DNA from: a virus
IMG/VR virus record: IMGVR_UViG_3300042449_000414
Location: 1 to 24,417 of that record
Length of the DNA: 24,417 bases
Reading direction: 5' to 3' (one strand)
Below the pieces are notes generated by a model, which was given only the letters and a program-made list of their open reading frames with translations, was not told the origin of the DNA and did no database searches. How positions within the stretch are numbered: the first letter of the stretch is position 1; every line of letters begins with the position of its first letter. Shown here in pieces: positions 94-24,332 of the stretch. The position numbers and the translations under genes were made by a program.

Positions 94-639
94 TTATGTA
101 GCACCACACGTACCACAATCACCTTCACTAATACAAGGAGGGGTTTCAGGAACACCAGGGCAATAAGTCACTGTAATTCCTGCAGGAGGTGGAGCTTCAA
201 CTGAACCTGTCACTACACATTCTGTCACTACACTATTTCCTGGGACACCTTGTGGAAACGGAACCCCTGTGTCACAAGGTGTAATTAGTATATCTATACT
301 ACTTTCTGTTGTATTTTCTAATCTAACACACTCACATGGATATGTAGTTGTAGATGTGGTTGTAGTTGTAGATGTACTTGTGGATGTGGTAGTAGATGTA
401 CTAGTAGTTGTAGTGGTAGTGCCACCAACAATTAAATCAATGTAATTAGTACATATAGAATCAGATTTCACTCTTATCACTATGGTTCCATTTGGAACTA
501 AAGAAGATGTGTATCCTGATACTAAAGAAGCTTTAGGTACATTATTTTCAAAAGGAACTACAAACCCATCTACATCTGAATAAAGATCAAATGGTCCTGT
601 ATCAGAACCTGCTATTGTTAATGTTATTAATACTGTCAT
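94..639 (-). CDS. Thr-rich virion protein with Cys-containing C-terminal domain
   Basis: This 181-residue protein is the last gene of the leftward structural operon. Residues 1-72 look like a small beta-rich domain. Residues 74-99 are almost pure Thr/Ser (DNA 343-420), and residues 100-181 form a Pro- and Cys-rich domain with paired cysteines (PCEC, GDCGTCG). There is no signal peptide and no family I can name. The Thr/Ser linker between two domains, and its place beside the collar and lectin-like genes, suggest a fibre or surface-decoration protein. The gene starts 22 bases after the stop of the previous gene, behind an A-rich leader containing AAAACCAAAATAA and no Shine-Dalgarno. Role is inferred from context only. 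Confidence 0.8.
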   Translation of the reverse strand: MTVLITLTIAGSDTGPFDLYSDVDGFVVPFENNVPKASLVSGYTSSLVPNGTIVIRVKSDSICTNYIDLIVGGTTTTTTSTSTTTSTSTSTTTTTSTTTYPCECVRLENTTESSIDILITPCDTGVPFPQGVPGNSVVTECVVTGSVEAPPPAGITVTYCPGVPETPPCISEGDCGTCGAT

Positions 640-660: not shown

Positions 661-1722
661 TTAAAAACTTCTTATTGGGCGAACATAAAAATTGTTAATT
701 CCTTTACCTGAAGGAGATACAGCACCACTACTAAAAAATTGTGCCCAAGAATTATTTATATCAAATTCACTAGAACTCCAATGCGCATTATCATATGTAA
801 ATCCACCAATTGCAACTCTATTTAGGAATAATTTATTTAACTCATCTTTGCTAGGTAAATACCAATCAGAATATCCTCCTTCAACTAAATCATTACATAG
901 TCTAGCAGCGATTCCAGCTGTTGCACATCCTGCAACTATATCAGTTGTATTTTGACTACCTGTACCAAGTGCTGTACCATCTGCTCCTGTAATTAATGTA
1001 CCTTGACAACCCCATATAGGTAATGTAGGAAGATCAGCAACAGTTGCAACCAATCCATGTTCACTAGCTGCATCATATCCAGGATCTCCTGGTTGTAATA
1101 TATATGCAATCTTACCACCTAAAGCAGATTCTCCAATAGTATATGTTCCAGGAGGAATAGGTCCTATTGTAGTTGTAGTGGTGGTTGTGGTTGGTGTAAT
1201 TGTTGTTGTTGTAGTTGTAGTGCTACTACTTGTTGTAGTTGTTGTAGTTGGTGCTACAGTAGTTGTGGTGGTTGTGGTTGGTGTAATTGTAGTTGTAGTG
1301 GTAGTAGTAGATGTACTACTTGTTGTGGTAGTGGTGGTTGGTGCAACAGTGGTGGTGGTTGTAGTTGTTGTAGGTGCTATTGTTGTAGTGGTTGTAGTTG
1401 TGCTACTAGTGGAAGAAGATGTTGTTGTTGTTGTTGTAGGTGTAATAGAACAAGAAGCTACTAATTGACAAAAGTATGCTTGGAGAAGAGGAGTGTTCTC
1501 AATTGTATCTATAATATGTGCTATAAATTCATCAGAGCACATTCTATTATCTATCTTCTGTAAAGCTACTTCTAGATTATCTTTAGATTGAATTCCTGTA
1601 CAAGGTAAATTTGGACCATTGTATATAATTTGAAAACTAGATATACAAGGATCATTACATGCAAATGGAAATGCAATTCTATAAGCTTCATTATAACAAG
1701 GCATTCCTGGTAAACAAGACAT
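661..1722 (-). CDS. Tail-tip/fibre protein: poly-Thr stalk with DUF1566-like C-terminal domain
   Basis: This 353-residue protein has three parts. Residues 1-92 are a Cys-containing head with a TGIQSKDNLEVALQKID motif resembling GIQTGDSLSYVEQALIEFL in the neighbouring collar protein, so the two may attach to the virion the same way. Residues 95-188 are repeated Thr/Ser blocks separated by IAP, VAP, ITP and IGP. Residues 190-353 match the DUF1566/Lcl C-terminal pattern, with WYLPSKDELNKL (288-299), HWSSSE (314-319) and a terminal YVRPIRSF. DUF1566 domains adopt C-type-lectin-like folds and are found on phage tips and as targets of diversity-generating retroelements. A receptor-binding role is inferred. 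The gene follows the collar gene by 9 bases. Confidence 0.85.
   Translation of the reverse strand: MSCLPGMPCYNEAYRIAFPFACNDPCISSFQIIYNGPNLPCTGIQSKDNLEVALQKIDNRMCSDEFIAHIIDTIENTPLLQAYFCQLVASCSITPTTTTTTSSSTSSTTTTTTTIAPTTTTTTTTVAPTTTTTTSSTSTTTTTTTITPTTTTTTTVAPTTTTTTSSSTTTTTTTITPTTTTTTTTIGPIPPGTYTIGESALGGKIAYILQPGDPGYDAASEHGLVATVADLPTLPIWGCQGTLITGADGTALGTGSQNTTDIVAGCATAGIAARLCNDLVEGGYSDWYLPSKDELNKLFLNRVAIGGFTYDNAHWSSSEFDINNSWAQFFSSGAVSPSGKGINNFYVRPIRSF
1159..1440 (-). repeat. Degenerate Thr-codon repeat encoding the poly-Thr stalk
   Basis: About 280 bases of near-uninterrupted ACN/AGY codons, seen on the plus strand as GTWGTNGTN runs. They encode repeated units of 6-8 Thr followed by (I/V)(A/T)P and a Ser-rich patch. 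The synonymous codons are mixed rather than identical, so the protein repeat is older than any recent slippage, although the DNA remains prone to recombination. Confidence 0.85.
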
Positions 1723-19903: not shown

Positions 19904-19989
19904 GGTGCAGTGGCGAAATGGATAGACGCAGCCCTATCAAGGGGTGGAGGTGAAAGAAACTCATACAGGTTCAAGTCCTGTCTGCACTA
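19904..19989 (+). tRNA. tRNA-Leu-like, anticodon probably CAA
   Basis: The acceptor GGTGCAG/CTGCACT has 7 pairs with a terminal G-U, and the discriminator is A, usual for Leu. The D-arm is GCG/CGC with the class-II Leu pattern, a long variable arm has a GAG/CTC stem, and the T-arm is ACAGG-TTCAAGT-CCTGT. The anticodon arm is irregular. With U33 in place the anticodon reads CAA (19938-19940), but two stem pairs fail. A slipped stem, GCCCT/GGGGT, pairs fully but leaves only a 5-base loop. No CCA is encoded. Confidence 0.75.
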
Positions 19990-19995
19990 CAAAAT

Positions 19996-20279: not shown

Positions 20280-20428
20280 AGTCAGGTGGCGGAATGAAGG
20301 CACAAAGAGTAATAGTATGTGCTGGATATGGTAGACGCTAAGAAAGAAATTAACTTCGTATCTAAGTGGAAACACATGGTGGTACACTAAAGCATAATTT
20401 CATACAGGTTCGAGTCCTGTCCTGACTA
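20280..20428 (+). tRNA. Oversized tRNA-Leu-like RNA with D-loop hairpin insertion
   Basis: The acceptor AGTCAGG/CCTGACT is perfect and the discriminator is A. The T-arm ACAGG-TTCGAGT-CCTGT is perfect. D-stem GCG (20289-20291) and CGC (20336-20338) flank the Leu-type sequences GCGGAATG and GGTAGACGC, but between them lies an extra hairpin, GCACA (20300-20304) with TGTGC (20318-20322). The anticodon arm is an elongated, mismatched hairpin with TTAA at its tip, suggesting UAA. The variable region is also long. The whole is 149 bases against about 85 for a normal tRNA-Leu. Confidence 0.65.
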
Positions 20429-20444
20429 CAAATTTAAACCATTT

Positions 20445-20576
20445 TCCTGACGTTAGGAAGATGGTGACAGCTTGGAAAGACAAGCAAATTGACCAGGAAT
20501 AGATCTTTTCTTTATTAATCATTTGTTTGTGATCTATGGTGGTATCTCGTGAGTTCGAATCTCACTCTGGTCACCA
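20445..20576 (+). tRNA. tRNA-like RNA with two competing acceptor stems
   Basis: A perfect T-arm (GTGAG-TTCGAAT-CTCAC, 20549-20565) is followed by TCTGGTC, A and an encoded CCA. TCTGGTC pairs with GACCAGG (20491-20497). Alternatively GTCACC (20571-20575 region) pairs with GGTGAC (20463-20468), which precedes a D-arm-like hairpin GCTTG/CAAGC. The two stems exclude each other. Between them lies an extended hairpin, ATAGATC (20499-20505) with GATCTAT (20531-20537). A GTT anticodon (Asn) could sit at its tip in a 6-base loop, but this is uncertain. TTTCCT/AGGAAG forms another hairpin at the 5' side. Confidence 0.55.
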
Positions 20577-20596
20577 AAACAATTTAAACTTAAACT

Positions 20597-24118: not shown

Positions 24119-24138
24119 TCAAATTTTAATTATATTTG

Positions 24139-24175
24139 TATAAAGGGCTTCAATAGAGCTCTTTATACATTTTAT
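24139..24175 (+). terminator. Hairpin with T-rich tail before a tRNA-like gene
   Basis: TATAAAGGGCT (24139-24149) pairs with AGCTCTTTATA (24157-24167) over 11 positions with one G-U, followed by CATTTTATTG. TATATTTG at 24131-24138 fits a Bacteroidota -7 box, but no -33 TTTG lies 19-21 bases upstream. Confidence 0.65.
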
Positions 24176-24316
24176 TGTAAGGTGATGAAATTGGCAGACA
24201 TGCCCTCTTGTCTCGAGGGTGAGAAACATCTAATAAAGACAGAATATGGGTTGACCACAAATTGATTTTGTTCTGTTCCTAAAGACCTTGTGGAGGTTCG
24301 AATCCTTCCCTTACAG
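24176..24316 (+). tRNA. tRNA-Asp-like (GTC) with very long variable region
   Basis: The acceptor TGTAAGG/CCTTACA is perfect, the D-stem is ATG/CAT, and the anticodon arm CCCTC-TTGTCTC-GAGGG is perfect with anticodon GTC, U33 and C38. The T-arm is GGAGG-TTCGAAT-CCTTC and the discriminator is G. G73, G34, U35, C36 and C38 are the known E. coli tRNA-Asp identity bases. The D-loop, however, is of Leu type, position 37 is U, and about 70 bases replace the short variable loop. Within it ACAGAA pairs with TTCTGT, or CCACAA with TTGTGG. Confidence 0.65.
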
Positions 24317-24332
24317 CTAAACATTTAAACAT

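Follow-up and report, generated by a model that had tools for sequence, protein, structure and literature searches.

The identity set of tRNA-Asp has been described as G73, G34, U35, C36, and C38, with the G1-C72 pair being crucial in bacterial tRNA-Asp; a U1-A72 pair is reported to confer amidation of Asp-tRNA-Asn, which G1-C72 and U20a block (PMC9976931). The family of tRNA-like RNAs analyzed here includes a 141-nt gene at 24176..24316 (+) of the window, the whole 24,417-nt stretch of viral DNA that was analyzed (IMG/VR record IMGVR_UViG_3300042449_000414). The family is like bacterial tRNA-Asp (GUC) in G73, G34, U35, C36, and C38, and its anticodon loop differs from the host loop CUGUCAC at position 37 alone, where it has a pyrimidine. 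However, it has a class II body, a Leu-type D arm, U1-A72, a long branched variable arm, and another T stem. With tRNA-Leu and tRNA-Ser it shares the class II layout, the long variable arm, and the Leu-type D loop, but it differs from both in its Asp-type anticodon loop and a far larger arm, and from tRNA-Leu in its G73. tRNA-Leu carries A73, and a tRNA-Leu identity was rejected because all 51 distinct hits of our covariance model have G73 and none has a Leu anticodon. Allo-tRNAs have an acceptor branch of 12 bp arranged as 8/4 or 9/3, and the family, whose branch is 7/5 in the alignment, does not belong to them. Allo-tRNAs and the selC* tRNA-Cys are, as described in PMC7609411, likewise non-canonical bacterial tRNAs with long variable arms, but their acceptor and anticodon stems are longer than the standard 7/5/5 bp (acceptor/T/anticodon) of the family. 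The Bacillus cereus pseudo-tRNA "tRNAOther," likened here by its description, is also chromosomal and tRNA-like and is reported to be non-functional in translation, but it comes from another phylum (PMC3399842).

The gene is supported by the cloverleaf reading, the blastn match, and the model score, and its parts lie on the (+) strand. The 5′ strand of the acceptor stem, UGUAAGG, starts with U1 (24176..24182) and pairs with 24309-24315 (helix 1, with both-side changes in 5/7 pairs); its 3′ strand, CCUUACA, is followed by the discriminator G73 (24309..24316), and CCA is not encoded in the gene. The D arm, AUG / AAAUUGGCAGA / CAU, has a Leu-type loop (24185..24201, helix 2), and the anticodon arm, CCCUC-UUGUCUC-GAGGG (24203..24219, helix 3), carries GUC at positions 34-36, U at 37, and C at 38 (24210-24214). 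The T arm is GGAGG-UUCGAAU-CCUUC (24292..24308, helix 8), and the spacing between the anticodon and T stems is 72 nt. An earlier note on this DNA had read the gene as a tRNA-Asp interrupted by an insertion. What it said of the perfect acceptor and anticodon stems (7 and 5 bp), the full Asp identity set (G73, GUC, and C38), the class II Leu-type D loop, and the oversized variable region agrees with our analysis, in which the T arm is normal. An Asp-identity tRNA-like gene with a Leu-like class II body and an odd variable region is thus supported, whereas an inserted tRNA-Asp is not. It did not mention the pyrimidine at 37 (the loop TTGTCTC has both U33 and U37), the first pair U1-A72, or the membership of this phage copy in a Bacteroidota chromosomal family. 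This gene was missed both by ARAGORN, whose calls in the window were three other tRNAs, and by Rfam 15 at permissive E values of up to 1, RF00005 included. The single-sequence fold of the gene is uninformative on its own (z −0.62).

To describe the structure, we used an alignment of 22 diverse members, the window copy included, with 35 pairs and 770 cells; these members, and the 21 of the covariance model R2, were picked for diversity by a script and then hand-adjusted. Pairing under the cloverleaf with a branched variable arm holds in 96.5% of the cells, a figure that leans toward the drawn structure because this was drawn by hand from the same sequences; the both-side changes, which are unaffected by this, were found in 26/35 pairs and 119 cells. 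None of 500 shuffles reached the observed pairing or number of both-side changes, and controls with slid partners were 45 to 58% paired. The acceptor, D, anticodon, and T stems (helices 1, 2, 3, and 8) all covary, as a tRNA cloverleaf should. The variable arm domain (24221..24289; helices 4, 5, and 6) starts with V1, a 4-bp helix paired in 99% across the 22 members (24221-24224 with 24286-24289, 3/4 pairs forming in the window copy), followed by the 3-bp V2, paired in 96% (24229-24231 with 24283-24285), and V3, paired in 86% (24238-24244 with 24271-24278). The internal loop AUAAA/CUAA, framed by V2 and V3 (24233-24237/24279-24282), is nearly constant. The end of V3 is either a hairpin or a small junction with the motif GG-RUWGA-CC-AC, which reads GG-GUUGA-CC-AC in the window (24248..24258; helix 7 and conserved alignment columns); GGRTWGACCAC occurs in 46/101 bacterial copies among the matches listed and in 12/51 model hits. 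A hand parse that took 143 of 157 sequences (13 parser failures, mostly with U at D-stem position 10, and one sequence with N) found at least three pairs of V1 and at least two of V2 in 119/143 relatives. The apical arm is very variable on a constant body, and member lengths are graded from 93 nt, with a plain arm, to more than 160 nt. Because V1 and V2 covary and the lengths grade down to 93 nt, the variable region is, on this comparative evidence, a retained, structured, branched variable arm and not an intron. What the earlier note had taken for an insertion is thus a conserved arm whose base stem covaries and which some members (93-95 nt) have in plain class II form, and the two mutually exclusive hairpins that it had drawn give way to a single covarying structure in the 22-member alignment.

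Blastn against 50,697 phage records gave some match in 122, of which only LR756504.1, a 636-kb uncultured phage, was significant (72.8% identity over window positions 24174-24317, almost exactly the gene; E 3e-10); the other 121 were weak. The Lak phage matches H2-H10 of this search were rejected as relatives, having hardly anything in common with the gene outside the T arm. Megablast of the whole window against the phages gave no match, blastn of the relative L021 against them nothing, and blastn of the relative L034 solely an incomplete match (39%) to a gene annotated as tRNA-Leu. A search with the variable-arm motif found five viral contigs: L004-L006 carry the gene, L008 is the same sequence as LR756504, and L007 was dismissed as a chance match to the motif. 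A pattern of the D and anticodon arms was found in 75 viral contigs, nearly all with a tRNA-like gene, while a variable-arm-only pattern, silent on the anticodon, found 44 stretches, 19 of them inside a tRNA-like gene; 12 of these 19 lie outside the 75-contig set, and all carry GUC followed by U. With a looser script, the collected loci yielded 64 distinct class II Leu-like genes, 55 with the loop YUGUCUC, of which 40 have a GGRUUGACC-type motif and 15 have other long arms. Relatives of the gene occur in LR756504.1 and in dozens of viral contigs. Among TerL relatives (the best 80 of 456 loci), no family member was seen, many of these loci being too short on the relevant side. A phage variant with an additional D-loop insert and the loop CTGTCTA was also observed (L093:266-431, L095, L114, and L115).

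An anticodon-arm pattern found at least 120 stretches in 84,980 species genomes, and 79/80 loci among the matches listed were titled as Bacteroidota taxa; the 80th (L236, Hyphomicrobium) is without a T arm. The matches listed include 101 complete copies from 77 bacterial loci, with carriers such as Pedobacter, Chitinophaga, Algoriphagus, Cyclobacterium, Flammeovirga, and Saprospiraceae. ARAGORN called a tRNA in none of eight bacterial loci (0/8), and Rfam at permissive thresholds left the gene unmatched in all four loci submitted (0/4), with no match to an intron family. R2, a covariance model built from short-arm members with the window excluded, found one to five copies in each of eight carrier genomes, where family members scored at least 79 bits and other matches at most 61, a gap present in 8/8; tandem copies occur, and one genome has five. 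In 392 Bacteroidota genomes, R2 matched at least 42 with E values no higher than 1e-11, including one doubtful case, a count which is a lower bound because nine candidates were scored per genome. The candidate of that scan in genome G080 (76 nt, 65.9 bits) is probably no family member. The window gene scores 101 bits under R2 over its full length (E 7.7e-21), and it is not a chance resemblance, because of this score and because the significant blastn match covers the gene almost exactly. The sequence comparisons thus solidly support an RNA family with both phage and Bacteroidota chromosomal members, and the structure predicted for it. We found no prior report of the family in the open PMC subset, including the available text of the structured-RNA surveys PMC2864571 and PMC8040213. 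The family is unannotated, and a conserved tRNA-like gene across a large bacterial phylum and its phages escapes the two annotation methods tried, ARAGORN and Rfam.

The -7 promoter box of Bacteroidota is TAnnTTTG, and a promoter-like box matching it, TATATTTG, lies at 24131..24138 (+), 45 nt upstream of the RNA 5′ end. Within 150 nt upstream, TANNTTTG occurs in 57/97 bacterial copies among the matches listed, compared with some 9% of shuffled sequences and 11% of reverse complements. A hairpin, TATAAAG...CTTTATA, is located between the box and the RNA (24139-24167, (+)); since L004 has an altered yet still paired version of it, it perhaps serves as a leader or terminates the upstream gene. 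An Lrp/AsnC-type gene (PF01037, PF13404), always divergent where present, was found 130-366 bp away in 46/77 bacterial loci among the matches listed and was not found in the other 31; these 46 loci are not 46 independent events because many are related species. In a 112-sequence tree, copies from phages and from bacteria are interleaved, with no fewer than seven changes; the supports are modest because only 118 columns were used. Of the 137 model hits, 21 that scored below 79 bits were excluded from the tree: 20 resemble other class II tRNA-like genes, and L093 (56 bits) belongs to the family but has an insert in its D loop. As judged from this interleaving, phages have acquired the gene repeatedly, and phage and host copies are mixed.

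The identity positions were examined in 55 aligned R2 hits from 34 loci, 51 of them distinct. Since the training set of R2 was picked by a pattern that included the loop and the D arm, and its loop was fixed, the constancy of the loop reflects that selection in part, whereas the variation seen at 33, 34, and 37 does not. U35, C36, C38, and G73 are invariant (51/51), and all five Asp determinants are present in 48/51 hits as well as in the window gene. G34 is kept in 48/51 and lost (C or U) in 3/51, for which weaker recognition by AspRS would be expected. Position 37 is U in 42, C in 5, G in 4, and A in none (pyrimidine in 47/51), and U33 is present in 44/51 and replaced in 7/51. The pairs U1-A72, G2-C71, U3-A70, and A51-U63 each occur in 51/51, as does C74, while CCA is encoded in 5/51; few regions of the family are as conserved as the acceptor end. 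Decoding tRNAs have a purine at 37 and U33, a rule that the family does not follow, and with U1-A72 throughout it lacks the G1-C72 pair. A canonical tRNA-Asp with the loop CUGUCAC is present in 7/8 carrier genomes, and because it coexists with the family in the carriers, the family is additional to it. AspRS scored over the cut-off, in one copy, in 17/18 genomes, and GatB was found in 10/10 carriers and 6/8 non-carriers; a dedicated AspRS paralogue or amidotransferase was not found in these genomes of 10 carriers and 8 non-carriers. The distribution of AspRS and GatB is compatible with charging and amidation and is not diagnostic of either.

We tentatively favor the reading that the gene is the phage-borne member of a Bacteroidota family of class II tRNA-like RNAs that would be aspartylated and used little or not at all in decoding. 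Like a tRNA, the RNA would be transcribed, processed at its 5′ and 3′ ends, and supplied with CCA. Since the AspRS determinants are kept, we infer charging by the ordinary AspRS. Considering that nearly all members have a pyrimidine at position 37, that U33 is not fixed, that the T stem is unlike that of the host tRNA-Asp, and that tRNA-Asp coexists, little or no use in decoding is favored, and the job of the RNA is probably other than reading the genetic code. The aspartylated RNA might be amidated to Asn, because U1-A72 permits the amidotransferase, and the charged RNA might then serve a non-ribosomal reaction or sense charging, with the variable arm as a docking site. Expression of the RNA may be controlled by the divergent Lrp/AsnC-type gene, and in infected cells the phage copy may provide this same function or titrate it. 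Against aspartylation stand the absence of G1-C72, the loss of G34 in 3/51, and the fact that a long arm with G73 would also suit SerRS. The fuller scheme, in which Bacteroidota have a dedicated non-decoding aspartyl- or asparaginyl-tRNA with a class II body and its own docking arm, which acts in a non-ribosomal reaction or in charging-dependent regulation under the divergent Lrp/AsnC gene and has been captured many times by phages, is doubtful as a whole. If the RNA is charged and yet non-decoding, it would open a non-ribosomal use of aminoacyl-tRNA and explain its carriage by phages, and such a use, if true, could be tested in cultured Pedobacter, Chitinophaga, and Flammeovirga.

It is possible that the RNA is instead an uncharged small RNA that mimics a tRNA, its shape binding a protein such as RNase P, a modification enzyme, or a defence nuclease, or its loop binding another RNA, with the phage copies as decoys. 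The great variability of the apical arm, set against the constancy of the body, the variants at positions 33, 34, and 37, the tandem copies (five in one genome), and the repeated acquisition by phages would suit such a mimic; however, it would not by itself account for Asp anticodon-loop determinants kept in 48/51, for G73 in 51/51, or for an acceptor end that ranks with the best-conserved regions. It is unlikely that the gene is a functional tRNA-Asp for GAC/GAU codons whose class II arm is simply oversized: although GUC, C38, G73, and the normal D and T loops would fit this, A is absent from position 37, which is mostly U, while U33 is replaced in 7/51 and G34 in 3/51, and host tRNA-Asp genes coexist. 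Charging with serine without reading of the anticodon is quite improbable, for although SerRS is described as needing G73 and a long variable arm (PMC7609411), the D arm is Leu-like, and serine identity leaves the invariance of U35, C36, and C38 in 51 hits unexplained. A tRNA-Asp with an intron or another removable insert in its variable region, for which only the unusual length speaks, is very improbable, since V1, beside the core, covaries (helix 4), V2 does too, members of 93-95 nt with simple arms exist, and neither the window gene nor the four bacterial loci matched an Rfam intron family.

The window contains other tRNA-like genes. The second odd one, at 20280-20428 (+), has relatives in L401 and later loci, and the ends of this group, AGTCAGG-TGGCGGAAT...GGTAGACGC and ACAGG-TTCGAGT-CCTGT-CCTGACT-A, are common to at least 120 viral stretches, the head being fixed by the search pattern. 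The 126 matches listed for it include 88 complete copies with 76 distinct D-to-T cores and total lengths of 73-163 nt; L488 has three copies, each with a different core. No anticodon arm beyond the shuffled expectation was found in the cores, and the exact pattern matched 0/296 Bacteroidota genomes. This group may carry variable RNA segments within a tRNA frame. The window copy has about 33 extra bases in the D loop with a hairpin GGCACA...TGTGCT. At about 20450-20583 (+), there is a tRNA-like GACCAGG...CTGGTC-A-CCA with the T arm GTGAG-TTCGAAT-CTCAC, in which neither a D arm nor an anticodon arm of normal form is obvious. The gene that ARAGORN called tRNA-SeC (TCA) at 19904-19990 (+), 87 nt long, probably represents a UGA-reading class II tRNA whose position 33 is read here as A. 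A third phage group of tRNA-like genes, with a CAAGGAG acceptor, A73, and a long middle region, was seen at L073:4517-4660 (-) and L041:7214-7350 (-), and LR756504 (L002:5250-5430) has two 88-nt genes that ARAGORN called tRNA-Asn and tRNA-Thr, of class II length with class I anticodons. Finally, the predicted proteins at 661-1722 (-) and 94-639 (-) of the window contain long Thr/Ser-rich repeats.
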